Origin: Jannaschia sp. M317
Lineage (GTDB): Bacteria > Pseudomonadota > Alphaproteobacteria > Rhodobacterales > Rhodobacteraceae
Assembly: GCF_025141175.1 (NCBI RefSeq)
Contig: NZ_CP081158.1
Coordinates: 1 to 52,164, forward strand
Direction: 5' to 3'
Length of the DNA stretch: 52,164 nt
The notes beneath the pieces are model-generated. The model worked only from the letters and a program-made list of their open reading frames with translations. It was not told where the DNA came from and did no database searches. Made by a program: the position numbers and the translations under genes. Of this stretch, positions 4,086 through 52,164 are shown one piece after another (positions within the stretch are counted from its first letter, which is position 1; each line of letters opens with the position of its first letter).

Positions 4086-4087
4086 CC

Positions 4088-5584: not shown

Positions 5585-5616
5585 ATCGGATACTCCGTTA
5601 GGTTACGTTGAAAGGG

Positions 5617-6981: not shown

Positions 6982-7053
6982 GACGGAAGACGCGGCAGGC
7001 CGCGTGCCGGACCCGCCAGGGCCCGGACCGAATGTCTGATTGTCATCTTGGTG

Positions 7054-7740: not shown

Positions 7741-7848
7741 TTTAACATCTCCACCTCTTGTCGCATGCCGCAAGATCGACCGACCGCATCGGGAGCGTTC
7801 GACGCAGCGGTCCCACGAGCACTAATTGCCTTGAACGTCATTTGTCCA

Positions 7849-7881
7849 GACTAGTATTTCAGATTCATGACTAGTATTCCA
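7849..7881 (+). promoter_or_regulatory. Tandem candidate GntR operators between gntR and the lyase operon
   Basis: GACTAGTATTTCA (7849-7861) and GACTAGTATTCCA (7869-7881) are direct repeats whose starts are 20 bases apart, so they lie on nearly the same DNA face. The second is repeated exactly, in reverse, at 1055-1067 before the TRAP genes. The core CTAG is palindromic. The divergent intergenic region (7741-8132) holds no gene and presumably both promoters. Binding by the adjacent GntR protein is inferred. Confidence 0.7.
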
Positions 7882-8132
7882 GTTTTAAGAGAGACGAATC
7901 GGCGGCACAGGACCGCGTCGGTCGGCTCTGAGGAGGAACGTAGCGTGCATGACGTCGACAGTGCAGGAAAAACCGGTCGCAGGCCTGATCGGCCCGTCCG
8001 ATTGCGGCAGATCGTCGAAGTGCCGCAGACCTGCGACTGCACGGACGGAGGCTGATATCCGCCCTCAGCCACGGCCCCGTAAGGCGCCGCATCACCTGAC
8101 CACTTTCATGACCGAACTGGACCGAGCGACCG

Positions 8133-21264: not shown

Positions 21265-21345
21265 CCCAATGATCTGAGCTTCCGTGAAACGGCTCTTTCG
21301 CCCTCGCAGCCCTCGTCATTTACCGGCTATCAGTCCCGGCCCTAG

Positions 21346-23619: not shown

Positions 23620-23628
23620 TCTCAAGAC

Positions 23629-34716: not shown

Positions 34717-35876
34717 AGATCTCGGACGTCCGTGTCATCCGGTTCCGGACCCATGCCGATCGCTGGGACATCGGCCACGCCCGGCTGAAGCCGAAGGCCG
34801 AGGTGATCCAGACCGTGACCTGCATCGACACTGATGCGGGTCTCACGGGCTACTTCTTCGGCGGCGGCAAGCATGGCGACCAGGACGGCATGACCCCCGA
34901 CGAACAGCGCCTGATCGAAGGCCAGGTCCGCGACATGATCCTGGGCGCCGATCCCTTCGACCGGGAACTGATCTGGAAATGGATGTGGGTGCGCAACATC
35001 CCCGAAGTCGCCCAGAGCGTGATCGACTGTGCGCTGTGGGACCTGGCGGGGCGCCACGCGGACCTGCCGGTCTACAAGTTGATGGGCGGGGCGCGCGACA
35101 AGGTGCCCGCCTATGCCTCCACCTATCCCAACATCGGCCAGCCGCAGGTTTACGCCGAACACGCGCTGGCCTGCCAGGCCGAGGGGTATCGCGCCTACAA
35201 GATCCATCCGCACTACTTCTGGAACCCGGACACCGGGTTGCCGACCAACGGCCGCCCGTCCAACATCCGCGCCGACATCGAGACGGTGAACCTGGTGCGC
35301 GAAGCGGTCGGCCCGGACATGGTGCTGATGTACGATGTCTGGGGCACCTATCACACCATCGAAGAGACGATCAAAGTCGGGCGCGAGCTGGAGAAGCTCG
35401 ATTTCTACTGGTTCGAACATCCGATGCCGGAATACCGGGTGGAAAGCTATCGCAGGCTCTGCCGCGAGCTGTCGATCCCGATCCTGGCCCCGGAAATCGC
35501 CGCAGGCGGCGTGTTCACGCGGGCCGAATGGATCCTGCAGGGCGCCTCGGACATGAGCCGGATGGACATCCGCCGTGGCGGTGTCACCGGGTGCCGCAAG
35601 ACCGCCGTCGTCTGCGAAGCCTTTGGCCAGCGCTGCGAGATCCACATGGCCGGCTGGGGCAACCTGCAGGTCATGGGCGCCACCTCCGAAGACACCAGCG
35701 AATGGTACGAAAAGGGGCTGCTCGCCCCCGGTGTCGACTACGACGCGCCGCATCCCTACCTGGAACGCAATTGCGACCCGATGGACGCGGACGGCATGGT
35801 CGCCCTGCCGCAAGGGCCCGGCCTGGGATACCGCCCGGTCTGGGATTACATCGATGACAACCGGGTCACGCCATGA
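34713..35876 (+). CDS. Second enolase-superfamily sugar-acid dehydratase
   Basis: A 387-residue mandelate-racemase/muconate-lactonizing family protein. Metal ligands are D208 (MYDVWGTY), E235 (WFEHPMPE) and E261 (LAPEIAAGG), with base H311 (CEIHMAGWG). KIHPHYF replaces the usual K.K motif with K.H. It is clearly distinct from the dehydratase at 32491, so the operon carries two dehydratases, possibly for two acids or epimers. Overlaps the mutarotase start by four bases. Confidence 0.83.
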   Translation: MKISDVRVIRFRTHADRWDIGHARLKPKAEVIQTVTCIDTDAGLTGYFFGGGKHGDQDGMTPDEQRLIEGQVRDMILGADPFDRELIWKWMWVRNIPEVAQSVIDCALWDLAGRHADLPVYKLMGGARDKVPAYASTYPNIGQPQVYAEHALACQAEGYRAYKIHPHYFWNPDTGLPTNGRPSNIRADIETVNLVREAVGPDMVLMYDVWGTYHTIEETIKVGRELEKLDFYWFEHPMPEYRVESYRRLCRELSIPILAPEIAAGGVFTRAEWILQGASDMSRMDIRRGGVTGCRKTAVVCEAFGQRCEIHMAGWGNLQVMGATSEDTSEWYEKGLLAPGVDYDAPHPYLERNCDPMDADGMVALPQGPGLGYRPVWDYIDDNRVTP

Positions 35877-36265
35877 CGATCTACCGGCGTGCCTGGACGA
35901 TGCAGCTCAAGCCCGGCGCGGCACAGGCCTATGACGCCGCCCATGCGACGGTCTGGCCCGACCTGCGCCAGAACATGATCGACGCCGGCATCCATCGGTT
36001 CCACCTGTTCCGCTCTGGCCAGACGGTCTTTGCGATGCAGGAACGCCTGCAGCCCTTCCCACCTTCGGGCACGCCGCCCAGCGAGGTCACAATCCGCTGG
36101 TGGCAGGCCATGGCCCCCCTGATGGAGACGGTCGACGGCCTCAGACCGCTGCAGACCGACCTGCGCGAGGTCTTCTCCCTCGTGCCCCCCGATTCAAATG
36201 AGGAGCCCCCGCATGAGCGGCATGACCGGCATCGTCCCGATCCTTCTGACCCCCTTCACCGATGA
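35873..36265 (+). CDS. L-rhamnose mutarotase (RhaM/RhaU) family protein
   Basis: A 130-residue frame; residues 1-105 match the small dimeric mutarotase fold (RRAWTMQLKPGAAQAYDAAH, VWPDLRQNMIDAGI). It speeds alpha/beta interconversion of a deoxyhexose. Compared with the RhaU protein at 39366 it lacks the Tyr of the D-Y-S motif (here HRFHL). The last about 25 residues are polar and unrelated to the family and overlap the next gene by 53 bases; the functional end may have been nearer 36190. Confidence 0.82.
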   Translation: MTIYRRAWTMQLKPGAAQAYDAAHATVWPDLRQNMIDAGIHRFHLFRSGQTVFAMQERLQPFPPSGTPPSEVTIRWWQAMAPLMETVDGLRPLQTDLREVFSLVPPDSNEEPPHERHDRHRPDPSDPLHR

Positions 36266-37115
36266 CGGTGCCATCGACGAGACCAGCCTCGCCCGCGAGG
36301 TCGAGGCGACGCTCGACACGGGCGTTCACGGCCTGGGCATCGCCATCGGCAGCGAGATCTTCAAGCTGACGCCCGACGAACGCCTGTCGCTGTTGCGCCA
36401 GGTGGCCCGGCAGGTCGACGGGGCCGTGCCGTTGGTCATGAATACCTCCGCACCGGGGACCGACGTCGCCGTGCGCCTGTCGGTGGACGCAGCCGAGGCC
36501 GGGGCCACGCGCCTGATGATCTGGCCACCCGACTTCTTTCCCACCGGACCGGATTCGGTGATCGAACATCTGTCGCGCATCGCCGCCGCGACGGGCCTGC
36601 CCATCGTCCTGCAGGATGTGCCGCAATCACCGATCCCGCCGTCGCTGGCCCTGCGCATCATGCAGGACGTGCCGTCGGTCGACACCATCAAGGTCGAAAC
36701 GCAGCCGAACGTCGAACAGGTCCGCGCCATGGTCGGGGCAGTGGGCGACTCCCTGACGGTTCTGGGTGGGGCCGGCGGCGGCACCCTGGTCGAGGAATAT
36801 CGCCGCGGCGCCCGCGGAACCATGCCATTCGCCAGCCAGGCCGCCGATTTCATGGCCGCCTGGACAGCCCTCGAATCCGGCGACGTCGCCGCCGCCGAGC
36901 AGATCATCGAAACCCGGATCCTGCCCGTCAGCCGTCTCGGTTTCCAGGGTCGCGACCTGTTCTACCACGTGCACAAGGCCCTGCTGCTGCGCGACGGGAT
37001 CTTCGACACGGCCCATGTCCGCGCGCCGACCCATCGCCCCGACGACACGACCCTTGCCGAGATCGCGCGCCTTGTCGCGCGGCCAGAACTGGCAAACCCC
37101 GCTAAGAAAGGCTGA
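36213..37115 (+). CDS. DapA/NAL-superfamily aldolase
   Basis: A 300-residue TIM-barrel protein of the dihydrodipicolinate synthase/N-acetylneuraminate lyase family. K160 in DTIKVE is the Schiff-base lysine, near K161 of E. coli DapA. The usual catalytic Tyr (YN.P) is replaced by Gln134 (VLQDVP), and the GTTGE loop is AIGSEIF, so it is not a housekeeping DapA. In context it may split a 2-keto-3-deoxy acid to pyruvate and an aldehyde such as L-lactaldehyde. ATG 36213 is chosen over earlier starts because GGAG lies just upstream. Confidence 0.82.
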   Translation: MSGMTGIVPILLTPFTDDGAIDETSLAREVEATLDTGVHGLGIAIGSEIFKLTPDERLSLLRQVARQVDGAVPLVMNTSAPGTDVAVRLSVDAAEAGATRLMIWPPDFFPTGPDSVIEHLSRIAAATGLPIVLQDVPQSPIPPSLALRIMQDVPSVDTIKVETQPNVEQVRAMVGAVGDSLTVLGGAGGGTLVEEYRRGARGTMPFASQAADFMAAWTALESGDVAAAEQIIETRILPVSRLGFQGRDLFYHVHKALLLRDGIFDTAHVRAPTHRPDDTTLAEIARLVARPELANPAKKG

Positions 37116-37121
37116 AAGACG

Positions 37122-37967
37122 ATGAAACTGATGAGAGTCGGCACCCCCGGCGCCGAGACCCCTGCCCTGTACGACGACGACGACGGCACGATCCGCGATC
37201 TGTCCGGTGTGGTGTCCGATATCGACGGTGCGGCCCTCGCGCCCGACACCCTCGCCCGGTTGGCGGCCCTGGACCCGGCGTCCCTGCCGTCGATGCCCGC
37301 CGACATCCGCGTCGGCCCCTGCGTCGGTGGGGTGGGCAAGGTGATCTGCATCGGGCTCAACTATGCCGACCACGCCGAGGAAAGCGGCATGACCGTCCCG
37401 CCCGAGCCGGTGATCTTCATGAAGGCCACCTCGTCGATCTGCGGACCCAACGACACCGTCGAACTGCCCGCCGGGTCCGAGAAATCGGATTGGGAGGTAG
37501 AACTGGGCGTCGTCATCGGCACCCGCGCCAAATCCGTCACCGTCGAGGATGCGATGGATCACGTGGCCGGGTTCTGCGTCATCAACGACCTGTCGGAACG
37601 GGCCTTTCAGCTGGAACATCAGGGCCAGTGGGTCAAGGGCAAGTCCGCCGACACCTTCGGTCCCATGGGTCCCTGGATGGTCACCCGCGACGCGGTCGCC
37701 GATCCGTCCGATCTGTCGATGTGGCTGGAGGTGAACGGCCACCGCTACCAGGACGGCTCGACGCGTACGATGGTCTATGACGTGCCCTTCCTCGTGTCCT
37801 ACCTGTCGCGTTTCATGTCCCTGCAACCGGGCGACGTGATCTCTACGGGGACACCTCCGGGCGTGGGCATGGGCCAGCGGCCGCCGCGGTATCTGCGGGA
37901 TGGGGACGTCATCCGCCTGGGCATCGCCGGATTGGGCGAACAGCGGCAGGCGGTCGTGGCGACCTGA
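37122..37967 (+). CDS. Fumarylacetoacetate-hydrolase family protein (2,4-diketo-3-deoxy acid hydrolase type)
   Basis: A 281-residue FAH-family enzyme. The core (about 65-275) shows CIGLNYADHAEESG, PVIFMKATSSICGPND, DWEVELGVVIG with the metal-binding Glu pair, and STGTPPGVGMG. Close relatives in L-fucose and L-rhamnose oxidation hydrolyse 2,4-diketo-3-deoxy acids to pyruvate and lactate. It starts six bases after the aldolase stop and is last in the CUT1 operon, converging on rhaK. Confidence 0.87.
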   Translation: MKLMRVGTPGAETPALYDDDDGTIRDLSGVVSDIDGAALAPDTLARLAALDPASLPSMPADIRVGPCVGGVGKVICIGLNYADHAEESGMTVPPEPVIFMKATSSICGPNDTVELPAGSEKSDWEVELGVVIGTRAKSVTVEDAMDHVAGFCVINDLSERAFQLEHQGQWVKGKSADTFGPMGPWMVTRDAVADPSDLSMWLEVNGHRYQDGSTRTMVYDVPFLVSYLSRFMSLQPGDVISTGTPPGVGMGQRPPRYLRDGDVIRLGIAGLGEQRQAVVAT

Positions 37968-37983
37968 CCCTGCCGCCGAACCG

Positions 37984-39369
37984 TCAGGCGGCGCCTTCGC
38001 GCGCCGCCACCCGGTCGGCCCAGTCTGCGGCATATCGGGCGCAGGCCGCGTCCCCGCGAACAGCAGAACGTTCCGCCCCCTCTGCGCGGGCGGGGGCCGC
38101 CCCGCACAGCAGGGCCGTGCCCTCGGTCGTGCCGGTGGCGTTCGCGGTCGCGATCACGTCGCGCCCAGTCGCCGAGGCCAGCATCGTCAGATAGGCTCGA
38201 TTGCGGGCAAAGGGTCCCTCGACCAGGATCGGACCGCGCGCCCCGATCAGGCTCAGGCAGCGCGCCGTGACCAGCGCCAGATAGAACCCGACCGCAGCCC
38301 CTCGCCGACCGGTTCCGACCGGACAATCGGGTCCGGCCCAGGCCGCCTGCATCCCCTGAAAGGGACCGCAATCCGGCACCGCCGCAGGCAACAACATCGA
38401 TCCGTCGCGCAGGACTGCCGCGATGTCGTCGGCCGCGGGCTCGGTCGCGCGCCCCTCGGTCAGCAGATCGTATTCCCGCCCGCCCATGAACCGGGCCGAC
38501 GGGACCGGATCGCCCAGGGCGTTGACGTTCATCAGGCAATCGCGGGCCGGATCCAGCGTCACCGCAGATCCACCCACCGCAAGGGCGATGACCCAGGTGC
38601 CGGTCGACACCACGCCAAAGGGCGCCTGCCGCGCGCCCAGATGCGGCAGCAGCGAGGCGTTGGAATCGTGGATGCCGCAATGGACGGGCGTATCCGCCGC
38701 CAGGCCGGTGCGCGCCGCGATTTCGGGCAGGATCGGTCCCAGAATCTCCTGCGACAGGCGGGCGGGCGCGATCCGGTCGCGAATGCCCAGGCGGTCGACC
38801 AGGTCGGAAAAGGCGCGCGCCTCGGGCCGCCAGAGATCGGTGTGACAGCCCAGCGACGTCACGTCCGTCGCCGCCACACCGGTCAGCCTATGGCCCCAGT
38901 ACTGCGGATAGGTCACCACCGTCGCCGTCCGGTCCCGCAGGCCCGCGTCCTGCCGAAACTGCCAAAAGATCTGCGCCCCCAGGTTCAGGCCCCCGGGCAG
39001 ACGTGGCGATCCGGTCTGCGCGAAGTCGGGCCGCACCTCCGCATAGGCGGCGGCGCAGGCGTCGGGGCCTGCGTGTTCGTAATCCAGAATGGGGGCCGCC
39101 AGGTCGCCATCTGCCGTCAGCAACGCTCCGGCGGCCCCGTGGGTGGTGATGCCAATGGCGCCGATGCCGTGGTCGCGGTGAAACCGGGCCAGTTCCTCCA
39201 GCAGAAAGGCCCAGTGCCCTTCCGTGTCGAAATGAGGATAGGGCGGACCGGGCAGGACGGTGTTGGGCCGGGTTGCGACCTCGACCTCTCGCAGGGTGTC
39301 CGGGTCGACGGCGGCCAGCTTTGCGTTGGTCTTGCCGATGTCGATGACGGCGATGTGGGCGCGCGTCAT
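37984..39369 (-). CDS. rhaK: L-rhamnose kinase RhaK (FGGY family)
   Basis: A 461-residue FGGY carbohydrate kinase. The phosphate-binding loop [15 protein letters not shown] opens the protein, and [12 protein letters not shown] and [12 protein letters not shown] are the later ATP-domain motifs. In the rhizobial rha locus RhaK phosphorylates the sugar and is also needed for transport by the RhaSTPQ ABC system. Last gene of rhaRSTPQUK, overlapping rhaU by four bases. A small inverted repeat GCCGCC/GGCGGC (37972-37992) overlaps its stop. Confidence 0.9.
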
Positions 39370-39680
39370 GGCAGGTGGAAGACGGTCTTCAGCGGGATCG
39401 CCACCGGTTCATTGTCGGGTGCCGCCTCCATGAGGTCGGCCATGTGCGCCCACCACCGCTGCATCACCGGATGGTCGGGCAAGGCGTCCATCCCGTGATC
39501 CTCCGTCCGCCAGAGCACGCCGAACAGCAGCCCCGTTTCTTCGTCCAGGTGGATCGAATAGTCGCTGATCCCCGTCTCCCGCAGCAGGGCGACCAACTCG
39601 GGCCAGATCTCGTCATGGCGACGCTGATACTCCGCCGCATGTCCCGGCCTGAGGATCATCTTGAACGCGAATTTCTCCAT
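39366..39680 (-). CDS. rhaU: L-rhamnose mutarotase RhaU
   Basis: A 104-residue protein of the full family length. [20 protein letters not shown] and the following [15 protein letters not shown] are the classical RhaM/RhaU signature, with the catalytic His and Tyr present. It interconverts the anomers of L-rhamnose. The start overlaps the rhaQ stop by one base. Confidence 0.93.
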
Positions 39681-40666
39681 CACGCGCGCCGCCACATGGA
39701 CCACAGCCGCGGCAGGGCGATCACCCCGATCAGCAGCGCCCCGATAACGATCGACATCACGATGCCCGGCACGTTCAGAAGGCCCAACCCGAAGGTCACC
39801 AGCCCCATCACGAAAGCGGCGATGACGACGCCCGGAATGGTGCCCGATCCGCCCAGGATGCTGACGCCGCCCAGGACAACCATCGTGACGATCTCCAGCT
39901 CCCAGCCGACGGCAATGGAGGGGCGCGTCGATCCCAGGCGCGAGGTCAGGCAGACCGCCGCAACCCCCGACATCAGGCCGGTCAGCACAAAGAGCGTGAA
40001 TTTCACCCGCGCAACCCGGATCCCCGAGAACAGCGCGCCGGTGGCGTTGTTGCCGATCGCATAGACCGCCCGGCCAAAGTTGGTCTTGTGCAACACGAAG
40101 GCATAGATCCCCGCCAGCACCGCGAACAACACGAACTCGAACGAGATCACCCACCAGACATAGCCCTGCCCGAAAAAGGCGAAATCCGTGGGATAGCCCT
40201 GATAGGACTGGTCGCCCAGGATGATATAGCTGATGCCCCGGAACAGGCTCATGGTGCCGATGGTGACAACGATCGATGGCAACCCCATCAGCGTGACCAG
40301 CACCCCGTTGAAGGCCCCGCACGCCACCCCGACCGCCAGGCCGATCAGGACCAACCCCGGAGCACCGACCCCCACCTGCGCCGCAGCCCCCATCGCGGTA
40401 GAGGCCAGCGCAAGGATGGCCGCCACGCTCAGATCGATCTCGCCCGAGATGATCAGCAGCGCCATGGCGAAGGCGATCATCGCCTTCTCGGTAAAGTTGA
40501 AGGTCGCGTCGCTCAGGTTCCAGGCGTTCAGAAAGTACGGCGAGGCAAAGCTGTTGGCCACGAAAATGCCGACCGCCACCAGGATCAGAAGGCTCTCCCA
40601 GCTTTTGAGGCTGCGTTGCAGCGGCGATTGCAGACGGTCGGGGATATGGCGTGCTGTATCGGTCAT
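39680..40666 (-). CDS. rhaQ: CUT2 ABC transporter permease RhaQ
   Basis: A 328-residue ribose/rhamnose-type permease with about eight to ten helices. [20 protein letters not shown] is the hallmark segment of CUT2 permeases (BPD_transp_2), and [17 protein letters not shown] follows. I chose [10 protein letters not shown] (start codon ending at 40666), which overlaps the rhaP stop by four bases. Works with RhaP, RhaT and RhaS. Confidence 0.92.
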
Positions 40667-41646
40667 GCGGGATGCTCCGCGGATTTGAGGATGATGCGGC
40701 CCTTGGCTCGGTTGGCCTGCGCGTTCAGGATGACCGCGATGATGATCGCCGCGCCCGAGATCGCCAGCTGCCAGAACGGCGAGATGTCGACCACCGGCAA
40801 GGCGTTCTTGATGATGCCCAGGAACAGCGCCCCCAGCAGGGCACCGCCCACGGTGCCGATGCCGCCCATGATCGACACACCGCCGATCACGCAGGCCGCC
40901 ACTACGTCCAGCTCGAACCCCGCGGCGATATCGACGTAGGCCACCGCATAGCGCGCCACCCAGAGGTATCCGGCCAGACCCGCCAGCGCGCCCGAGATGG
41001 TAAAGGCCCAGAACTGGGTCCGCCCCACATCGATGCCCGCATAGGTCGCCGCATGGGGGTTGCCCCCGGCGGCATAGAACGCCCGGCCCAGCGTGGTGCG
41101 TGACATGACCACCGAAAAGACCACGACCGCCAGGATCGCCATCCAGCTCATCACCGGAAGGCCCAGCCATTCAGCCCGCGGGAACGCCTTGAAGGCCGGG
41201 CTCATCTCGTGGCTGTTCACCCATTTGCCGTTCGAGATCAGAAAGATGATGCCCCGGTAAATTGTCAGCGTGCCCAGGGTGACGACGATGGGCGGGATGC
41301 CCAGCTTCCAGACCAGCAGGCCGTTGAACATGCCCATCACGGTGCCCAGTGCGATGGCCAGCACCAGGATCGCCACGACCGGCAGACCCGGGAACGCCAG
41401 GTTGGTCATCGCCACGACCATGCCCGTCAACGCCAGGTTGGCGGCCACGCTCAGGTCGATGCACTTGGTCAGGATCACGATCATCTGCCCGATCGCCAGC
41501 AGGATCAGGGGCGAGGTGTCGTTGAACACCGAGGCCAGGTTCGACGGGGCCGTAAAGGCCGGAAACCGCGTCGAGATCAACGCCAGCAGCAGCAGGATCG
41601 CCCCCACCAGCAGCGCCTCACGCGAGAACAGGAAGCGTCTGATCAT
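40663..41646 (-). CDS. rhaP: CUT2 ABC transporter permease RhaP
   Basis: A 327-residue permease, paralogous to Rha[21 protein letters not shown] and [20 protein letters not shown] are the CUT2 hallmarks; the gene overlaps both neighbours by four bases. RhaP and RhaQ form a heterodimeric channel in the rhizobial system. Confidence 0.92.
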
Positions 41647-43190
41647 TGGGTCTCTCCTTCGATGCCCGCAGCATGGCGCACCAGCGCCTCGGGCGACATG
41701 CGCTCCTGGTCCAGCTCCGCGACCATGCGCCCCTCGCGCATCACGATGACGCGGTCGGACATGCCCAGGACTTCGGGGATCTCCGAGCTGACCATGATGA
41801 CGGCCAGGCCCTGTGCGGCCAGTTCGGCCATGAAATCGTGCACCGCCGCCTTGGATCCGATGTCGATGCCCTTGGTCGGTTCATCCAGGATGATGACCTT
41901 CGGTTGGGTCGCCAGCCATTTGGCGATCACCACCTTTTGCTGGTTGCCGCCCGACAGGTTGCCCACATGGCTGTCCAAAGAGGCGGCGCGCAGGTCCAGG
42001 CGCGAGGTAAACTCCCGCGCGACCTTGAATTCCTCGGCCAGCTGCAACAGCCCATTGCGCGAGATCCGCCCAAGCGACGGCAGTGTGACGTTCTGAAAGA
42101 TCGGCAGCGCGGTGATGGCCCCCTGCTTGCCGCGATCCTCGGGCACGTAGACGATGCCATGGGCCACCGCATCCGCCGACGATCTTATGTCGGCTGCCGT
42201 GCCCTCGATCTTCAGCGTTCCGGCCGAGGGACGCGTGATCCCGAACAGGGCCTGCATCACTTCGGACCGACCCGCCCCGACCAGGCCGTAAAAGCCCAGG
42301 ATCTCGCCCCGGCGCAGGGTAAACCCGATGTCGGCAAATTCCGTCGGATGGCTGTAACCCGCGATCTCCAGAACCGGCGCGCCGGGGTTCAGCGTGCGGT
42401 CGGGAAAGATCTGCGTAACGTCACGCCCGACCATCATCTTGACCAGCGCGGCCTCGTCCACGTCGGACATCAGGCCGTCGCCGACCAGCGTCCCGTCGCG
42501 AAATACGGTATAGCGGTCCGCGATGCGAAAGATCTCGTCGAACTTGTGGCTGATGAACAAGATCGCCTTGCCCTGCGCCTTCAGCGCATCGACCAGCTCG
42601 TAAAGCTCCTCGATTTCCTTCTGGCTCAGGGCGGCGGTCGGCTCGTCCATGATGACCACGCGCGCGTCGATCGACAAGGCGCGGGAAATGGCGACCAGGT
42701 GCTTGTTGGCGATGCCCAGCTCGCGCAGCTTGGTGCCGGGGTCGATCTCGGCCCCGATGGACTGCAGGATCGCGGCAGCGTCCCGGTGCATCCGCGCCGT
42801 GTCGATCAGGCCAAAGCGCCCGCGCGGCGCATGTCCCAGATAGATGTTCTCGGCCACCGACAATTCATCGAACAGGACGGTTTCCTGGTGGATCGCCGTC
42901 ACGCCCGCCGCGCCCGCCGCCGTGGCATCGGGAAAGGTCGTGGCGGTGCCGTCGATGCGGATCTGTCCGCCGTCCGGCTGATAGATCCCGGTCAGGATCT
43001 TGACGACGGTGGACTTGCCCGCGCCGTTCTCGCCGATAAGCGCCGTCACTTCTCCGGGATAGAGAGCCAGCGATACCTCCGACAGGGCGCGCACGCCCGG
43101 AAACGTCTTCACCACGCCGTCCAGGGACAGCACAGGAACGACTGTGGAGGCCGCGGCTGCGGCATGGGGGTCGGGGCTGAGGCTTTGCAT
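41643..43190 (-). CDS. rhaT: CUT2 ABC transporter ATP-binding protein RhaT (two ATPase domains)
   Basis: A 515-residue fused ATPase typical of sugar CUT2 systems. Domain 1: Walker A GENGAGKST and Walker B VVIMDEPTAALS, with a poorly conserved signature (ELGIANKHLVAISRAL). Domain 2: degenerate Walker A GAGRSEVM, full signature LSGGNQQKVVIAKWL and Walker B VIILDEPTKGID. This split of good and weak motifs is normal for the family. It follows a hairpin after rhaS. Confidence 0.93.
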   Translation of the reverse strand: MQSLSPDPHAAAAASTVVPVLSLDGVVKTFPGVRALSEVSLALYPGEVTALIGENGAGKSTVVKILTGIYQPDGGQIRIDGTATTFPDATAAGAAGVTAIHQETVLFDELSVAENIYLGHAPRGRFGLIDTARMHRDAAAILQSIGAEIDPGTKLRELGIANKHLVAISRALSIDARVVIMDEPTAALSQKEIEELYELVDALKAQGKAILFISHKFDEIFRIADRYTVFRDGTLVGDGLMSDVDEAALVKMMVGRDVTQIFPDRTLNPGAPVLEIAGYSHPTEFADIGFTLRRGEILGFYGLVGAGRSEVMQALFGITRPSAGTLKIEGTAADIRSSADAVAHGIVYVPEDRGKQGAITALPIFQNVTLPSLGRISRNGLLQLAEEFKVAREFTSRLDLRAASLDSHVGNLSGGNQQKVVIAKWLATQPKVIILDEPTKGIDIGSKAAVHDFMAELAAQGLAVIMVSSEIPEVLGMSDRVIVMREGRMVAELDQERMSPEALVRHAAGIEGETQ

Positions 43191-43213
43191 GGGGTGACCA
43201 GTTTTTCCAAGGG

Positions 43214-43247
43214 GTCCCGGCGCGGGCGGGAGGCACCGCGCCGGGAC
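43214..43247 (-). promoter_or_regulatory. Perfect hairpin between rhaS and rhaT
   Basis: GTCCCGGCGCGG (43214-43225) pairs perfectly with CCGCGCCGGGAC (43236-43247) around ten bases. It lies in the 71-base gap between the receptor stop and the ATPase start, and has no T-run in the direction of transcription. It probably protects the receptor transcript. Confidence 0.72.
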
Positions 43248-43261
43248 AATCGATCAACGGT

Positions 43262-44263
43262 TCAGAAGATCGACTTGAAGTCGTCGATGTTCGACTCGTC
43301 GTAGACGAAGGGGTCGGCCATCGCGGCGGAGTTGGTATCATCCAGCGTGATGGTGCCCATCCGACCGATCGAGATCTCGGCACCCGGCTCGGCCGTGGCA
43401 TTGCCCGAGGCCAGCTGATGCGCGATCATCGCCGCGGAATAGCCCAGGTCGATCGGGTTCCAGATCGCAAAGCTCTTGGACGCCCCGCTCTCGATTGCGC
43501 CCGCCATCTCGGACGGCAGGCCCAGGCCGGTCACGTTGACCTCACCGATCTTGCCGGCATCCGCCACCGCCTGCGCGGCCGCCACGATGCCCACCGACGT
43601 CGGCGCGATGATCGCATCCAGGTCGGGGTAGGACTGCATCAGGCCCTGGGCCTCACGGTAGGATTTGTCAGCCAGGTCATCGCCATAGACGGTGCCGACC
43701 ACGTTGATTCCGGGATAGTTGCCCAGAACCTTGGTCATCTCGTCGATCCAGATGTTCTGGTTCGTCGAGGTGGTGGTCGCCGACAGGACCGCGACGTCAC
43801 CGCCATCGGGCAGGTGATCTGCGGCCAGCTTGATGATCATGTTGCCGATCAGCGCGTTGGACGAGGGGTTCAGGTGAACCTGGCGGCCCTCTTCGGCCAC
43901 GCCCGAATCCCAGCTGATGACGGTGATCCCGCGCTGCTGCGCCCGCTTGAGAGCCGGGACAAGTGCATCGGTGTCATTGGCCGAAACGGCGATGGCATCA
44001 ACGTTCTGCGCGATGAGCGAGTTGATGACCTCGATCTGGCCCTCGGCGGTGGTGTCGGTGGGACCGGTATAGATGATCTCCACGTTGCCCAGCTCGCTCG
44101 CGGCCTCTTCGGCACCCTTGGCTGCGGCCTCGAAGAAGCCGATGCCCAGGGCCTTGACGACCAGCGCGATGCGCATGTTGTCCTGCGCCATTGCGCTGGT
44201 GCCCATGAGGCTTGCGGCCAGCCCAAGGCCTGCGGCCATGGCGGTAAGTGTACGACGTTTCAT
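43262..44263 (-). CDS. rhaS: L-rhamnose ABC transporter substrate-binding protein RhaS
   Basis: A 333-residue periplasmic binding protein of the CUT2 (peripla_BP_4) type. Residues 1-26 are a Sec signal ending TSAMA before QDNMR. The body has ALKRAQQRGITVISWDSGV and VLSATTTSTNQNIWIDEM, close to rhizobial RhaS. It binds L-rhamnose and feeds RhaPQ-T. GGGAGGAAAC precedes its start. Confidence 0.92.
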   Translation of the reverse strand: MKRRTLTAMAAGLGLAASLMGTSAMAQDNMRIALVVKALGIGFFEAAAKGAEEAASELGNVEIIYTGPTDTTAEGQIEVINSLIAQNVDAIAVSANDTDALVPALKRAQQRGITVISWDSGVAEEGRQVHLNPSSNALIGNMIIKLAADHLPDGGDVAVLSATTTSTNQNIWIDEMTKVLGNYPGINVVGTVYGDDLADKSYREAQGLMQSYPDLDAIIAPTSVGIVAAAQAVADAGKIGEVNVTGLGLPSEMAGAIESGASKSFAIWNPIDLGYSAAMIAHQLASGNATAEPGAEISIGRMGTITLDDTNSAAMADPFVYDESNIDDFKSIF

Positions 44264-44297
44264 TGGTTTCCTCCCAATCGGTGATAACGGACGGACG

Positions 44298-45098
44298 TCA
44301 GCCCGCCTCCTCTTGCTGACCCTGGCCCAACGGGGCGACGATCAGGTTCACATCGGAGGCGTCCAGCATGGCGGCCGCCTTGTCCGAGATATTTTCGTCG
44401 GTGACGACGGTGGTGATCCGCGTCAGCGGGCACAGCACGAGGCTGGACCGCTGTTCGAACTTCGAGCTGTCGACCAGAACGACCAGTTCATCGGCCTGCC
44501 CGATCAGCTTCTGTTCCGCCTGGATCAGCAGGGCGTCGGATTCCATCAGGCCGATGGGGCCCAGACCCTGCGCGCCCATGAACATGCGGTTCGCGTAGAA
44601 GTTGCGCGTCACATCATTGTCGAAGGGCGACAGGATGATGTTCTGTTCGCGGTAGATGGCCCCGCCCGACAGCATGATGGTGTTTTCGGAATTCTTCAGC
44701 AGATGTTCCGCGATCGGGAACGAGTTGGTGAAGATGTTGCACCGCCGCGTAGCCAGCGGGTGGACCAACTGAAAGGTCGTGGTGCCGCCGTTGATGATGA
44801 TCGAATCGCCATCCTGCACCAGCTGCGCCGCCGCAAGCGCGATGGCCTGCTTTTCATGCATGTGCAGCGTTTCGTTCACCGAAAATGGCCGCCCCGTCAG
44901 ACCCGACAGGGTGGCGGGCGAAATCGCCTCGGCCCCACCCCGGATCCGGCGCAGCTTCTTTTGCATGTGAAGCGTTGCGACATCACGTCGGATCGTGGCT
45001 TCCGACGCCCCCGTCAGGTCGCACAGATCCGCAACCTTTACCAAGGTCCGGTCCTGCACTGCGGACAGGATTACGCGATGTCGCTCGGTTTCGTGCAT
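44298..45098 (-). CDS. rhaR: DeoR-family rhamnose regulator RhaR
   Basis: A 266-residue DeoR regulator. VADLCDLTGASEATIRRDVA near residues 19-38 is the N-terminal helix-turn-helix with the family TIRRD motif; the C-terminal sugar-phosphate sensor has FQLVHPLATRRCNIFTNSF and VLVDSSKFEQRSSLV. I chose the ATG ending at 45098, with AGGA six bases upstream, over a longer start at 45146. It is divergent from rhaDI and faces a perfect inverted repeat. It probably represses until a phosphorylated rhamnose product appears. Confidence 0.92.
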   Translation of the reverse strand: MHETERHRVILSAVQDRTLVKVADLCDLTGASEATIRRDVATLHMQKKLRRIRGGAEAISPATLSGLTGRPFSVNETLHMHEKQAIALAAAQLVQDGDSIIINGGTTTFQLVHPLATRRCNIFTNSFPIAEHLLKNSENTIMLSGGAIYREQNIILSPFDNDVTRNFYANRMFMGAQGLGPIGLMESDALLIQAEQKLIGQADELVVLVDSSKFEQRSSLVLCPLTRITTVVTDENISDKAAAMLDASDVNLIVAPLGQGQQEEAG

Positions 45099-45140
45099 AG
45101 GGTCCTCCGTTTGTCTGACGGTGCATTTCTTTCCGCTCTC

Positions 45141-45213
45141 TGTCAATCACTTTCAATCATAATCAATCTTTCTGCGGCGCAGCATGACTGATTATGATTG
45201 AAAGTGATTGACA
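45141..45213. promoter_or_regulatory. RhaR operator/divergent promoter: perfect 25-bp inverted repeat
   Basis: The 25 bases at 45141-45165 and 45189-45213 are exact reverse complements, separated by 23 bases. Each arm contains two TCAATCA units ten bases apart, and a further TCAATC overlaps the end of the left arm. Each arm also carries TTGACA pointing outwards (45208-45213 on the plus strand), so each likely serves as -35 region and operator at once. It lies in the rhaR-rhaD gap. Confidence 0.8.
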
Positions 45214-45283
45214 ATATTGGGACCCTCACGCAGTGTCAGGACAAGCATTTTCGCGCGTTTTCGCGCCACCCGTGGAGGAACCC

Positions 45284-47386
45284 ATGCTGAAAACAGTTCA
45301 GAGTCAGCGCCTTGAAAGCCGTTGGGATGACGGCGCCGCCGAAGGGCTGAGCGAATCGGAGCTGCTCCTCTATCGCTCGAACATTCTCGGCGCGGACAAG
45401 CGCGTGACCAACTATGGCGGCGGCAACACGTCGGCCAAGGTCATGGAAACCGACCCCCTGTCCGGCGAGCAGGTCGAGGTGCTCTGGGTCAAGGGATCGG
45501 GGGGCGATATCGGCTCCATCAAGATGGACGGGTTTTCGACCCTCTACATGGACAAGCTGGAGGCCCTGAAGGGTCTCTATCGCGGGCCCGAGCATGAGGA
45601 CGAGATGGTGGCCTACCTGCCCCATTGTACCTTTGCACTGAACCCCCGCGCCGCGTCGATTGACACCCCGCTTCATGCCTATGTGCCGCGCAAGCACGTC
45701 GATCACGTTCACGCCGATGCCATCATCGCCATCGCCGCCGCCGCGAACTCGCAAGAGTTGACGCAAAAGGTCTTTGGCGACCGCATCGGCTGGCTGCCGT
45801 GGAAACGTCCGGGCTATGAATTGGGTCTGTGGCTGGAAAAATTCTGCCTCGAAAACCCCGATGCCGACGGCGTCGTTCTGGGCAGCCATGGCCTGTTCAC
45901 CTGGGGCGACACCGCGCGGGACTGCTACGATACCACCATCGACGTCATCAACGTGGCCACCGACTGGCTTGCGGAACAGACCGGGTCGACACCGGCCTTC
46001 GGCGGACCGGTTCACGACAGCCTGCCGGGCGCGGCACGCCGCGCCGTCGCCGCGCGCCTGATGCCTGCGATTCGCGGCTACGTCAGCGGCAATCAGCACA
46101 TGGTTGGCCACTTCAACGACAGCGATGCGGTGCTTGATTTCGTCAATGCGCGCGACATGCCGCCGCTGGCCGCGCTGGGCACCTCCTGCCCCGACCACTT
46201 CCTGCGCACCAAGATCCGGCCCCTGGTCGTGGACTTCGATCCGGCATCGGGCGACGTCGACGCGGTGCTCGCCGGGTTGCCGCAGCAGATCGCGGCCTAC
46301 CGCGACGATTACGCCGCCTACTACGACCGCTGCAAACGTCACAACAGCCCCGCCATGCGCGACCCCAACGCGGTCGTCTACCTGGTGCCCGGCGTCGGCA
46401 TGATCACCTTCGCCAAGGACAAGGCCACGGCCCGGATTTCCGGTGAATTCTACGTCAACGCGATCAACGTGATGCGCGGTGCCTCCGCGGTCAGCGAATA
46501 TCAGGGCCTGCCCGAGCAGGAGGCCTTCGACATCGAATACTGGCTCCTCGAAGAGGCCAAGCTGCAGCGCATGCCCAAGCCCAAGGCCCTGGCCGGCCGC
46601 ATCGCCCTCGTCACCGGCGGTGCCGGTGGCATCGGGGCCGCCACGGCCCGGCGTTACCTGCAGGAAGGTGCCTGCGTGATGCTGGCCGACATCAACTCCG
46701 ACGCGCTCGAAACCGCGCGCGAGGGTCTGGCAGGCTCCTTCGGCGGCGACGTCGTGCGCAGCGTGATCATGAACGTCACCGACGAACAGGCGGTGGCCGA
46801 TGCCATGGCACAGACGGCGGTGGAATTCGGCGGCCTCGACCTGCTGGTGTCGAACGCGGGCATCGCCTCTTCGGCCCCGGTCGAGGAAACGACGCTGGCG
46901 CTGTGGTCGCAGAACATGGACATCCTCAGCACCGGGTATTTCCTGGTCAGCCGCGAAGCGTTCAAGATGCTGCGCGTGCAGGATCTGGGCGGCTCCATCG
47001 TGTTCGTCGCCTCCAAGAATGGCCTGGCCGCTTCGCCCAACGCCTCCGCCTATTGCACCGCCAAGGCGTCGGAAATCCACCTCGCCCGCTGCCTGGCCCT
47101 GGAAGGGGCCGAGGTCGGCATCCGCGTCAACGTGGTCAACCCCGATGCCGTGCTGCGCGGCTCCAAGATCTGGGAAGGCGACTGGCTCGAACAGCGCGCC
47201 GGCACCTATGGCACCGACAAGGAAGGCCTGGAGGAGATGTATCGCAACCGCTCGCTGCTGAAGCGGTCGGTCTACCCCGAGGACATCGCCGAAGCCTGCT
47301 ATTTCTTCGCCGCAGAGACATCGTCGAAGTCCACGGGCAACATCCTGAACGTGGACGCCGGCAACGTCCAAGCCTTCCCGCGCTGA
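45284..47386 (+). CDS. rhaD: Bifunctional L-rhamnulose-1-phosphate aldolase/lactaldehyde dehydrogenase RhaD
   Basis: A 700-residue fusion. Residues about 1-425 are a class II aldolase (GGGNTSAKVM, metal-site histidines in KHVDHVHADAI). Residues about 440-700 are a short-chain dehydrogenase (LVTGGAGGIGAAT near 441, LVSNAG, YCTAKAS near 589). The aldolase cleaves rhamnulose-1-phosphate to dihydroxyacetone phosphate and L-lactaldehyde, and the SDR part handles lactaldehyde. Length and layout match rhizobial RhaD. ATG 45284 follows GTGGAGGAA. Operon with rhaI. Confidence 0.93.
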   Translation: MLKTVQSQRLESRWDDGAAEGLSESELLLYRSNILGADKRVTNYGGGNTSAKVMETDPLSGEQVEVLWVKGSGGDIGSIKMDGFSTLYMDKLEALKGLYRGPEHEDEMVAYLPHCTFALNPRAASIDTPLHAYVPRKHVDHVHADAIIAIAAAANSQELTQKVFGDRIGWLPWKRPGYELGLWLEKFCLENPDADGVVLGSHGLFTWGDTARDCYDTTIDVINVATDWLAEQTGSTPAFGGPVHDSLPGAARRAVAARLMPAIRGYVSGNQHMVGHFNDSDAVLDFVNARDMPPLAALGTSCPDHFLRTKIRPLVVDFDPASGDVDAVLAGLPQQIAAYRDDYAAYYDRCKRHNSPAMRDPNAVVYLVPGVGMITFAKDKATARISGEFYVNAINVMRGASAVSEYQGLPEQEAFDIEYWLLEEAKLQRMPKPKALAGRIALVTGGAGGIGAATARRYLQEGACVMLADINSDALETAREGLAGSFGGDVVRSVIMNVTDEQAVADAMAQTAVEFGGLDLLVSNAGIASSAPVEETTLALWSQNMDILSTGYFLVSREAFKMLRVQDLGGSIVFVASKNGLAASPNASAYCTAKASEIHLARCLALEGAEVGIRVNVVNPDAVLRGSKIWEGDWLEQRAGTYGTDKEGLEEMYRNRSLLKRSVYPEDIAEACYFFAAETSSKSTGNILNVDAGNVQAFPR

Positions 47387-47395
47387 GGTCCCGCA

Positions 47396-48634
47396 ATGAC
47401 ATATGAAAGCGCCAAGGCCGCCTTTGCCGACTGGGGGGTCGACACCGAGGCCGCCATCGCCCGGCTGATGACCATCCCGATCTCCATGCATTGCTGGCAG
47501 GGGGATGACGTGAACGGGTTTGAACGCCGCGCGGCCACATCCGGCGGCGGCATCCAGGCGACCGGCAATCACCCCGGTCGCGCCCGCACCCCCGACGAGC
47601 TGCGCGCCGATCTGGACTTCGCCTATGCGATGATCCCCGGTCGCCACCGGCTGAACCTGCATGCGATGTACCTCGACACCGACAAGACCCCCGACCGGGA
47701 CGAGATCGAGTTCGAGCACTTCGCCCCTTGGGTCGATTGGGCCCGTGAGGCGGGCATCGGGCTCGACTTCAACCCGACGTTCTTTGCCCACCCGAAGGCC
47801 GACGACAACCTGACGCTGTCACACCCCGACCAGGGCATCCGCGATTTCTGGATCGAGCACGGCCAACGGTCGCGCGACATCGCCGCGCAGATGGGGTCCG
47901 CCCTTGGGTCGGCCTGCGTCAACAACATCTGGGTGCCCGACGGGTACAAGGACACGCCCATCGACCGCATGGCCGCGCGTACCCGCCTGGAGACGTCGCT
48001 GGACGCCATGCTGGCCCCCGCGCAGGATCCGGCCCAGATGCTCGATGCGGTCGAATCCAAGCTGTTCGGCATCGGGGTCGAGGCCTGCACCATCGGCAGC
48101 CATGAATTCTACATGGGCTATGCCATCCGCAAGGGCACCCTGCTGTGCCTCGACATGGGCCATTTCCACCCGACCGAGAACATCGCAGACAAGCTCAGCT
48201 CCGTGGCCCTTTCGCTGCCGCAGATCCTGTTGCACGTCTCGCGTCCGATGCGCTGGGACAGCGACCACGTCACCCTGCTCAACGACGACCTGCTTGCGAT
48301 GGGTCAGGAACTGGTGACGGCGGACCTTCTGGATCGCACGCGCATCGGGCTCGACTTCTTCGACGCCACGATCAGCCGCACCGCCGCCTGGGTGATCGGT
48401 ACGCGCAACATGCAAAAGGCGCTGCTGCGCGCGTTGCTGCTGCCGCTCGACCGGTTGCGGCAGGCCGAGGATGGGCTCGACTATACCACGCGCCTGATGC
48501 TGACCGAGGAAATCAAGGATCTGCCGTTCGGGGCCGTCTGGGCGGAACTCTGTGCCCGCGACGATCGTCCCTCCGGACTGCCGCTGATTCAGGCGCTCGA
48601 TGCCTATCAGGCCAAGGTCGCGACCCGCGGTTGA
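47396..48634 (+). CDS. rhaI: L-rhamnose isomerase RhaI (rhizobial/Pseudomonas type)
   Basis: A 412-residue TIM-barrel sugar isomerase. GNHPGRARTPDELRADL near residue 58, GSHEFYMGYAIRKGT near 232, LDMGHFHPTEN near 251 and HVSRPMRWDSDHV near 279 carry the acidic and histidine metal ligands. It converts L-rhamnose to L-rhamnulose. It starts nine bases after rhaD and converges on the replication gene. Confidence 0.93.
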   Translation: MTYESAKAAFADWGVDTEAAIARLMTIPISMHCWQGDDVNGFERRAATSGGGIQATGNHPGRARTPDELRADLDFAYAMIPGRHRLNLHAMYLDTDKTPDRDEIEFEHFAPWVDWAREAGIGLDFNPTFFAHPKADDNLTLSHPDQGIRDFWIEHGQRSRDIAAQMGSALGSACVNNIWVPDGYKDTPIDRMAARTRLETSLDAMLAPAQDPAQMLDAVESKLFGIGVEACTIGSHEFYMGYAIRKGTLLCLDMGHFHPTENIADKLSSVALSLPQILLHVSRPMRWDSDHVTLLNDDLLAMGQELVTADLLDRTRIGLDFFDATISRTAAWVIGTRNMQKALLRALLLPLDRLRQAEDGLDYTTRLMLTEEIKDLPFGAVWAELCARDDRPSGLPLIQALDAYQAKVATRG

Positions 48635-48644
48635 CCATCAGGGA

Positions 48645-48677
48645 ACGGGGCGCGGGGGGTCACCCCCCCTGCCCCGT
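48645..48677. terminator. Bidirectional terminator between rhaI and the replication gene
   Basis: ACGGGGC (48645-48651) pairs with GCCCCGT (48671-48677) and GGGGGG (48654-48659) with CCCCCC (48663-48668), leaving a small loop and a two-base internal mismatch. The stem overlaps the stop codon of the rep gene. It separates two converging transcripts. Confidence 0.7.
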
Positions 48678-49901
48678 CTCCGCCGCCAGCTCTGCGAATG
48701 CCTCCGGGTAAAGCTCTTGCCAGAAATCAAAGACGGCCTGCGCGTTCAGGGCTGACATCCAGCCGTGGCGCTCGAAATCCTGCGCCGCCGCCCCGTCCGC
48801 CAGACGCGCCGCGAACAGCCGGCGATCCGCGTCGCGCTGCGTGGGCGTGCGCGCCGCTGCAAGGTCGCGCACCAGGCCCAGCTTGCGGGCCCGCACCCCG
48901 GTGGGCACAGCGTCCGGCCGGGGCGCGGCCTCCTCGAGGCCATAGCCACCCTTCAACGCCGCGGCCAGGTATCGGGCGGGCGATTTCACCCCCTCTTGGC
49001 GGACCACATAGGCCAGGGTTTCGGCCACCGTCGCCTCGCCATGTTGCGACAGCCATTGCCGCGCCAGACGGTCGCTGACCCCCAGGGCGCGCATCTGCTC
49101 ATAGATCGGCGCATGGCGGTGCCCTGCCCCGTCGTCCAGGTCCAGAATGGCCAGTTGCGGGTTGGGCGCGATCACGAACCGGATATCCGTGACGGCCCGG
49201 CCCCGCTTGCGCGTCTCGGGCGTGATCAGGATATTGCTGGACCGGTTCACCTCGGCCACGGCGGGCTTGATGATCTTGGCGTTCAGATGCTTGAAAACGC
49301 CGTAATAGTCACTGTCATCGACCCCCATCAGGCGCCGGAACGTCTCCAGGGTCCACCATCCGGTGCTGCCCGTGCGATGAAACCGATAGCAATTCTCATA
49401 GAGCGCCAGCGCATGACCGCTGGTGAACCGGCGCTGGATGTTGAGGTTGATCAGGGCAAACACCTTCGGGTCGCTCAGCTTTTCGGCCAGCGCGGGCGAA
49501 TAGGCGTATTCACAGACGCCCCCCTTCAACTTGGCATAGCTCAGCAGGCTGGAAACGCCCCACTCCTGCTGGCCCTCCGGGTCCAGCATGTCCCATTCCG
49601 CCACCGTTTCCGCCAGGCCGCGCAGGCTTGCCTTCAGGGTGTCGAAATCGTTCGAGTTGTAGCCCACCATCAGGCACAGCGTGCGCGCGTCGATCTGATG
49701 GCTGCGCGCCTGCGTCAGGCTGTCATAGGCATTCAGCAGCAGCACGTTCGACAATTTGCGTTGCAGCAGCGTCAGCTTGCCCGAAACATGGATCGCGCCG
49801 ACATGTTTCTTGACCGCGTCCCGTTTCAACGCGCCCGTCAGACGGTCACGCGGCACCTCGCCAGAGACGCGGGAATTCCGATTGTCCTGCTCGGGCCTCA
49901 T
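48660..49901 (-). CDS. Plasmid replication initiator, Rep_3 (RepB-type) family
   Basis: A 413-residue initiator. VSGKLTLLQRKLSNVLLLNA near residues 40-60 and TSGHALALYENCYRFHRTGS with GWWTLETFRRLMGVDDSDYY near 160-200 are the two winged-helix regions of Rep_3 initiators, which bind iterons and open the origin. The C-terminal about 150 residues are less conserved. It is transcribed away from parA, with the iteron-rich gap (49902-50410) between. Roseobacter replicons of this kind are usually called RepB-type. No counter-transcribed RNA could be recognised. Confidence 0.88.
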   Translation of the reverse strand: MRPEQDNRNSRVSGEVPRDRLTGALKRDAVKKHVGAIHVSGKLTLLQRKLSNVLLLNAYDSLTQARSHQIDARTLCLMVGYNSNDFDTLKASLRGLAETVAEWDMLDPEGQQEWGVSSLLSYAKLKGGVCEYAYSPALAEKLSDPKVFALINLNIQRRFTSGHALALYENCYRFHRTGSTGWWTLETFRRLMGVDDSDYYGVFKHLNAKIIKPAVAEVNRSSNILITPETRKRGRAVTDIRFVIAPNPQLAILDLDDGAGHRHAPIYEQMRALGVSDRLARQWLSQHGEATVAETLAYVVRQEGVKSPARYLAAALKGGYGLEEAAPRPDAVPTGVRARKLGLVRDLAAARTPTQRDADRRLFAARLADGAAAQDFERHGWMSALNAQAVFDFWQELYPEAFAELAAETGQGG

Positions 49902-50410: not shown

Positions 50411-51793
50411 ATGACATCCAGCGCAAAGCCCCCCCTGCCCCCGTACTTTGGCATCGACCCCGAGACGGCGGGCAAGAAGTTGGGCGACCGTATCGACACC
50501 CGCCGATTCGCGAAAGCCGCCGCCTTCGCCGCCAAGGGACGCGAAGATCTGGCCAAGGCGGGTCACTCGCCCGAGGGCCAGAAACGCCTGCGCCGCTTCT
50601 CCACCTGGGAGATTTGCCGCTATCTGATCCCTGTCGCCAGCGCCCATTTCCGCCGCGTCCTCAAGGCCAATCCCGACCTTCCCCAGGGCGTCGGCGAAGG
50701 CAATTCCCGGTGGTTCAGTCTCGAGGACATTCTGACGCTGCGCGCCCATTTCGCCGCCGAAGGTGCCGCCGGGCGCGAGTATCTGCCCTATCGTCCCCAG
50801 GGGCTGGACGCCAAGATCGTCGCCGTGGCCAACTTCAAGGGCGGCGTCGGCAAGACCTCCACCTGCGCGCACCTGGCCATGTCTGCCGCGCTCGATGGCT
50901 ACAAGGTCCTGGTCGTCGACCTCGACAGCCAGGGCTCCCTGACCTCGATCATGGGGGGCAAGGTCGCCGACGAATGGCAGACCGTCTTCCCCCTCATGGC
51001 CCGCGATTTTGCCCAGCATGTCGCCGAGGAGAACGCCGTTCGTGCCGCGCGCGGCGAGCCGGAGATCGACCAGGACGAGACCCTCAAGGAAGCCCTGAAG
51101 GTTTCGCCGCGAAACCTGATCCAAGAGACGCACTGGCCCAACATCGACCTGATCGGCGCGCAGCTGAACCTCTACTGGGCCGAGTTCCAGATCCCCGTCT
51201 GGCGCATGCAGCAACGCGGCTGGCCGCTTTGGGATGCGCTGCTGTCGGGGCTGACGGACAGCGGGGCCTTGAGGGATTATGATGTCATCCTCCTCGATAC
51301 GCCCCCTGCCCTGGGCTACCTGACGATCAACGCTCTGGCCGCCGCGGACATCCTGCTGGTGCCGCTTGGCGCGTCCTTTCTGGAGTTCGACTCCACCGGC
51401 CGCTTTTTCGACATGCTCTATTCCACCTTTGCGAGCATCGAGGATGGTGAGAACCAAGCGCGCAAGCGGGCGGGTCTGCCGGAAATCCGCTTTGAGTGGG
51501 ACGCCGTGCGGACGGTCATCACGCGGTTTGACGCGGCACAGCAGACCGATCTGGCGAATGTCATTCAGGCCTATTTCGGTGATCTGATGACGACCTTCCG
51601 GCAGGATGTGACCGCCATGGTCGGACAGGCCGGCGAGCAGGTGAACGGCATCTACGAGGCCGACTATCGGGAGTTCAACCGCGACACCTATGTGCGCGGC
51701 CGGGAGACATTCGACCGCACCTGGGCGGAGACCAAGGAGCTGATCATCGGGGCCTGGTGGCGGGATCTGGCGGACGGGCAGAGGGCTGATTGA
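50411..51793 (+). CDS. parA: Plasmid partition ATPase ParA
   Basis: A 460-residue type Ia ParA. Residues about 1-120 hold a helix-turn-helix-like DNA-binding part (FSTWEICRYLIPVASAHFRR). FKGGVGKTS at about 142-150 is the deviant Walker A, VLVVDLDSQGSLT the A' motif, and VILLDTPPALGYLTINAL the Walker B region. It forms ATP-dependent patterns on the nucleoid to move ParB-bound plasmids and likely represses its own operon. parB begins two bases after its stop. Confidence 0.95.
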   Translation: MTSSAKPPLPPYFGIDPETAGKKLGDRIDTRRFAKAAAFAAKGREDLAKAGHSPEGQKRLRRFSTWEICRYLIPVASAHFRRVLKANPDLPQGVGEGNSRWFSLEDILTLRAHFAAEGAAGREYLPYRPQGLDAKIVAVANFKGGVGKTSTCAHLAMSAALDGYKVLVVDLDSQGSLTSIMGGKVADEWQTVFPLMARDFAQHVAEENAVRAARGEPEIDQDETLKEALKVSPRNLIQETHWPNIDLIGAQLNLYWAEFQIPVWRMQQRGWPLWDALLSGLTDSGALRDYDVILLDTPPALGYLTINALAAADILLVPLGASFLEFDSTGRFFDMLYSTFASIEDGENQARKRAGLPEIRFEWDAVRTVITRFDAAQQTDLANVIQAYFGDLMTTFRQDVTAMVGQAGEQVNGIYEADYREFNRDTYVRGRETFDRTWAETKELIIGAWWRDLADGQRAD

Positions 51794-51795
51794 TC

Positions 51796-52164
51796 ATGGC
51801 GAAACGACGGAAGTTGGCGACCCCATCGCAGGACGATCTGACGGCTCTGGAGGACCGGTTTCGCGACGAAACCCCGGTGCGTCCGAACACGGGCGTGGCA
51901 CCGATCGCGCAGGTCGTGGCCGAGGCCGCGCAGGCGGCGGAGCCGGGTGAAACGGCGCGACGGGTGGAGGATGCGGAGGCCGGTCGATACCGGGAGGCGG
52001 AGGCCAAGGGGCTGATCCTGAAGGAGATTTCCCTGGCGGAGATCGATGAGGCGGCGATGATCCGGGACCGGACCGTGGTCGACGCGACTGACCTGGCGGA
52101 GCTTCGAAACTCCATCGATATCAACGGATTGCGCCTGCCGATCGAAGTCTTTGAGCGATCCACG
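51796..52164 (+). CDS. parB: Plasmid partition protein ParB, N-terminal part (cut by the window end)
   Basis: The first 123 codons of parB. Residues 1-40 are the ParA-interacting basic start (MAKRRKLATPSQDD), and DATDLAELRNSIDINGLRLP ending IEVFERST is the start of the ParB/Srx nuclease-like domain. The next expected segment, YGLLSGYRRLLA, is found at window positions 39-74, so the gene continues at the left end. Total length would be about 370 codons. Confidence 0.93.
   Translation, partial: MAKRRKLATPSQDDLTALEDRFRDETPVRPNTGVAPIAQVVAEAAQAAEPGETARRVEDAEAGRYREAEAKGLILKEISLAEIDEAAMIRDRTVVDATDLAELRNSIDINGLRLPIEVFERST

Follow-up and report, generated by a model that had tools for sequence, protein, structure and literature searches.

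The window, by which we mean the whole stretch of DNA that was analysed, is the entire contig C4 of Jannaschia sp. M317 (G000:C4:1-52164; 52,164 bp). The genome consists of six contigs with 3,942,835 bases (3.94 Mb) and a completeness rating of 99.96%; the contigs measure 3,536,370 bp (C1), 104,827 bp (C2), 117,403 bp (C3), 52,164 bp (C4), 60,397 bp (C5) and 71,674 bp (C6). Near the right end of C4, an initiator gene (rep) and a partition ATPase gene (parA) lie on opposite strands, parA is followed by the start of a parB gene that runs off the contig, and the remainder of parB is found at the left end, followed by dctP. The features are as follows:

48660..49901, minus strand: rep, RepB-type initiator gene of the Rep_3 superfamily, oriented divergently to parAB; both Pfam domains, Rep3_N and Rep3_C, exceed the cut-off
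50411..51793, plus strand: parA, ParA-type partition ATPase of 460 aa; Pfam AAA_31 and CbiA above cut-off, NCBIfam partition_RepA below cut-off
51796..52164, plus strand: N-terminal part of parB, 123 codons, running off the right contig end; from the translation, no frame changes against six relatives, mapping to the ParB N-terminal part in 77 of 77 proteins
1..753, plus strand: left-end remainder of parB; the frame shifts once ahead of about base 36 and 6–8 further times at 255-694, which is read as assembly error
1..1564, no strand: low-quality contig tip, in which all the frame changes found for the two genes parB and dctP lie (alignments on either side of 754-1,213)
1208..2197, plus strand: dctP, TRAP substrate-binding protein; Pfam DctP on the open part, first ~350 bases rich in frame changes
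4757..10463, no single strand: KduI isomerase, MATE exporter, GntR regulator and oligo-alginate-lyase-like enzyme; NCBIfam, PDB and Pfam
35873..48634, no single strand: predicted cargo for L-rhamnose uptake and breakdown; NCBIfam and Pfam

A Rep_3 replication and partition module

The rep gene encodes both Rep_3 winged-helix domains (Rep3_N, 69.8 bits with a cut-off of 22.4; Rep3_C, 57.1 bits with a cut-off of 21.1). Both features of a RepB-type (Rep_3) plasmid were present, namely these initiator domains and an adjacent parAB pair, with parA, a single frame of 460 codons, at 50411-51793 and parB from 51796 across the join of the contig ends. Judging from the families, replication would start from the Rep_3 (RepB-type) initiator and the adjacent parAB pair would partition the plasmid. 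Elsewhere in the genome, the only relative of rep was a 31% match on C6. A RepABC plasmid was considered and rejected, as parB is followed by dctP and not directly by repC. Neither ParA nor two related ParB proteins reached the equivalog cut-offs for RepA and RepB.

The combination of rep and parAB is a known kind of Rhodobacterales replicon; the module is common to plasmids of Paracoccus, Falsirhodobacter and Rhodovulum, with 73–76% DNA identity in the first five matches. In the circular plasmid of Rhodovulum sulfidophilum DSM 1374 (NZ_CP015420.1, 102,180 bp), rep likewise lies on one strand and parA-parB on the other, with 73.4% DNA identity to the C4 module across 81% of a query of 3,565 bases. 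There, however, parB is followed by type VI secretion genes, whereas in C4 it is followed by a TRAP transporter. The best segments of the C4 parA are 69–84% identical to the parA genes of the 80 best loci among at least 567 that were confirmed. Within the M317 genome, the only close parA is that of C2 (G000:C2:55702-57054, 67% identical), and more distant parA genes (37–38% identical) are present on C5 and C6. No relative of the C4 initiator was found on C2; perhaps one cell combines similar partition genes with different initiators.

The gene after parA was assigned as a putative parB from the annotation of its relatives and from sub-cut-off ParB_N matches in two complete relatives. Neither piece of the C4 gene matched a Pfam family on its own. 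In the two complete relatives, ParB_N scores 20 bits (Pfam cut-off, 26.3), and the scores for several NCBIfam ParB models also fall short of the cut-off; annotated plasmid relatives are called either 'ParB N-terminal domain-containing protein' or 'ParB/RepB/Spo0J family partition protein'. The position directly after parA fits this name.

One parB gene is divided between the contig ends

At the right end, the parB frame is open from 51,796 to the end of the contig and comprises exactly 123 codons, and at the left end frame 3 encodes the next ParB segment, RYGLLSGYRRL. The initial annotation had read the ends in this way, as a ParB that breaks off on the right and continues on the left, and the alignments bore this out: in all 77 ParB proteins compared, the right end aligned with the N-terminal region and the left end with the region after it. 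With X as the ParB residue at which the right piece stops, the left piece starts at X-2 to X+14 (77 of 77 proteins). The comparison set consisted of 76 complete relatives (at least 300 aa) and the host's own C2 ParB; the relatives were drawn from the 80 best parA loci mentioned above, four of which were dropped with a short or incomplete ParB, and only alignment pieces above 30 bits were counted in the mapping. In one other genome (G008) a single open frame is matched by both parB pieces, and in a genus-mate (G016) both pieces lie on one contig, 23 nt apart, compared with 43 nt (8 + 35) after a simple join of the window ends.

The loop from PIEV to LLSG, counted on the window ends, measures 59 nt after joining (15 + 44), which is longer than in any of the 77 relatives, where it spans 8–18 residues (24–54 nt; the commonest length is 13 residues). 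Therefore, the join is accurate to about 20 nt and not to the base. The two ends thus join into continuous sequence through one split parB; the join is correct, with a margin of about 20 nt on its length in this poor sequence.

Searches of the genome with the ends were in line with single copies. The right 369 bases matched nothing other than themselves, and the left 1,200 bases matched themselves and a 38-base stretch (89% identical) in the parB region of C2. The C2 parB is a complete frame of 357 codons and is 33–53% identical to the window parB over the aligned pieces.

Frame changes cluster at the left tip

The last codon at the right end is complete, so that the ends, when simply joined, read through into left frame 1; as RYGLLSGYRRL is encoded in frame 3, one frame change must lie before about base 36. 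In a frame-aware alignment with six ParB proteins, the left part of parB contained 6–8 further frame changes between bases 255 and 694. The initial annotation had proposed a single missing base near 26–29, which is an undercount, and a full ParB C-terminus ending at 753, which is not one open frame as deposited; its conclusion that the molecule is circular stands despite the undercounted frame changes. The same kind of alignment with one relative each revealed nine frame changes in dctP at 1,256–1,564; the rest of its alignment, up to 2,194, and dctM (2,805–4,088) contained none. The last frame change found was therefore at 1,564, and the aligned stretches beyond it were free of them.

These alignments replaced a frame map based on a codon model. 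This map called 202–1,559 non-coding, so that errors there were invisible to it, and it was set aside. The 12 same-strand frame changes that it gave for the window all adjoin a stop codon, and on the other contigs its counts were uneven and included normal gene borders.

Because the frame changes track position and not the gene, and because they recur on other contigs (see below), the broken frames point to a sequencing or polishing artefact at the contig tip and not to decay of parB. With the broken parB and dctP frames read as uncorrected errors of the left tip, the living cell most likely carries an intact parB.

End overlap, GC skew and gene order

The two ends of C4 share no terminal overlap that we could detect. 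A repeat search of the whole window returned no repeat family of at least 40 nt, and blastn between the first and last 6 kb gave no match at the tips, the best match being internal (43 bases, 81%). A degenerate overlap of ~30 nt between the tips was also considered; the dovetail alignment reached a score of 10, as did 280 of 400 random pairs, and gives it no support. In an excerpt of PMC9025767, at least 50 identical overlapping end bases are given as the working criterion for circular Rhodobacterales contigs. C4 lacks such an overlap, although the gene evidence says that it is a circle, and therefore the overlap test alone would not call it one. The criterion is one group's working test and not a property of the molecule, and the end overlap may have been trimmed during assembly.

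After detrending, the cumulative GC skew is lowest at 51,427, next to rep/parAB, and highest almost opposite, at 26,875, which divides the window into arcs of ~27.6 and 24.6 kb. Its range was reached by none of 5,000 shuffles of 1-kb blocks. This pattern would be expected of two replication arms that meet opposite the origin, as on a circle; we grade it as supporting evidence only, because the shuffle control does not preserve operons.

With respect to gene order, no dctP beside parB was listed (matches of at least 80 bits) in seven genus-mate loci and one Tropicibacter stretch, some of which extend only a few kb beyond parB. The gene order across the join is thus without independent precedent.

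Other contigs of the assembly

Split genes were also found at the ends of other contigs. On C6, a FAD oxidoreductase is divided so that the right piece runs to residue 336 and the left piece starts at 338 of one relative, with 3 nt for the one residue in between. On C5, a molybdopterin oxidoreductase runs to residue 613 on the right and resumes at 622 on the left (again with one relative), with 27 nt for eight residues. The fit is thus exact for C6 and within 3 bases for C5. At both ends of C2 the open frames are rich in repeats and similar to one another, which is suggestive only, and C3 has no recognisable split gene at its ends. A clear split is therefore present in three of the five smaller contigs (C4, C5 and C6) and a suggestive one in a further contig (C2), C3 being the fifth. 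Frame changes were present at the left tips of C6 (two, in bases 2–203) and C5 (one, about 127 bases from the tip), and the right ends of C4, C5 and C6 had none in their aligned parts.

C1 begins with an ATG-led open frame, which we take to be the start of a dnaA-like gene. Therefore, the chromosome seems to have been rotated in the assembly and the smaller contigs left unrotated.

Cargo genes

The L-rhamnose region encodes a RhaS-type binding protein, an ABC ATPase, a RhaD-dehydrogenase fusion, RhaA, a RhaM mutarotase and a DeoR-type regulator. NCBIfam models for RhaA (L-rhamnose isomerase), RhaD_aldol-ADH and RhaS were matched above cut-off, and an L-rhamnonate-type hydrolase, an L-fuconolactonase-like protein, an aldolase-like protein and a kinase-like protein were matched below cut-off. 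On the other side of the window, KduI matched NCBIfam 5-dehydro-4-deoxy-D-glucuronate isomerase above cut-off, and a protein of 776 aa (8,133-10,463) matched the oligo alginate lyase of PDB 3a0o over residues 7–768 with 1049.4 bits. This oligo-alginate-lyase-like gene (8133-10463) lies near the TRAP transporter and KduI, on the same plasmid as the L-rhamnose breakdown genes. These matches suggest that the cargo may serve the use of L-rhamnose and oligo-alginate, and a role in algal-sugar use is plausible.

Further cargo comprises the TRAP transporter, a second sugar ABC transporter, RTX-repeat proteins and two transposase-related genes. A stretch of lower GC content (52–58%) at 16205-25221 encodes three RTX-repeat proteins, one of which also contains DUF285 repeats. 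A DDE transposase (12768-14159) is located at the edge of the low-GC stretch and an integrase-core fragment (20432-21223), presumably IS3-like, inside it, suggesting that the stretch is acquired DNA.

DISCUSSION

We consider it very likely that the window is a complete circular plasmid of ~52.16 kb from a marine alphaproteobacterium, with Rep_3 and parAB, linearised inside parB and carrying errors at its left tip. The initial annotation had likewise seen a whole circular plasmid cut inside parB, and this now has the support of a window that is identical to the contig, of the split parB, of ends for which no second copy was found in the genome, of Rep_3 together with parA, and of the GC skew. 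From these observations we infer that the C4 plasmid is physically circular; the assembly would have opened the circle at an arbitrary point inside parB. The scale of uncertainty in its size is tens of bases, at the join.

The deposited sequence could also be taken at face value, as a circle that carries a genuine parB pseudogene in the living cell and owes its stability to something else, and the 6–8 frame changes in the left part of the gene, besides the one near the tip, would agree with this. However, the nine frame changes of dctP all fall at or before 1,564 and none beyond it (754–1,213 lies outside the alignments), which follows position and not the gene, the left tips of C5 and C6 show frame changes in unrelated genes too, and the N-terminal part of parB is free of frame changes next to a parA of one 460-codon frame. 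A genuine pseudogene is therefore very improbable. An even smaller chance attaches to C4 being part of a larger circle with DNA missing at the join. No end overlap was found and closure was not directly observed, yet the ends make one ParB without missing residues, the joined loop is if anything too long, and an insertion exactly between neighbouring parB codons would be needed.

The absent terminal overlap is also the one observation in favour of a linear replicon, or of a misassembled chromosomal island, whose ends fall by chance in two different parB genes. Against this, each end occurs once in the genome apart from the 38-base match on C2, and the C2 parB is complete and only distantly similar (357 codons, 33–53% identical; the comparison covers the parB of C2, the contig with the only close parA). 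As chance placement of two ends at adjoining codons is not credible, we regard this explanation as negligible. We thus return to the circular plasmid opened inside parB, and its description as a complete plasmid of the RepB type, ordinary in kind, cut within parB by the assembly and with one low-quality tip, is right in substance.

Consequently, the C4 contig can be used as a complete plasmid, which is mainly a gain in record-keeping. Its parB should not be labelled a pseudogene or missing, and annotation of 1-1564 is likely to give false pseudogenes. More generally, a gene split over the ends of a contig can reveal circularity where the end-overlap test fails.

Among the publications listed on Jannaschia plasmids, judged by the title and the start of the abstract, none was about the 52-kb plasmid C4. 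A 2016 study, to go by its title, reportedly found rhamnose genes on plasmids of related bacteria. Those plasmids are reportedly of the RepA type and make dTDP-rhamnose, whereas C4 combines a Rep_3 initiator with genes for rhamnose breakdown. A further comparison is with Alteromonas sp. 76-1, for which an excerpt of PMC6431674 describes a plasmid with CAZymes for ulvan that is linked to the use of algal polysaccharides, as the C4 cargo may be. This bacterium belongs to another class and its plasmid is directed at ulvan, whereas the enzyme of C4 is oligo-alginate-lyase-like.

It is possible, if somewhat doubtful, that C4 represents a self-contained replicon for algal sugars, in which a Rep_3 initiator would be combined with an oligo-alginate lyase, KduI, a TRAP transporter and a pathway for the breakdown of L-rhamnose (perhaps also of the L-fucose type). 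If this is true, one 52-kb circle could confer growth on sugars of both brown and green algae.
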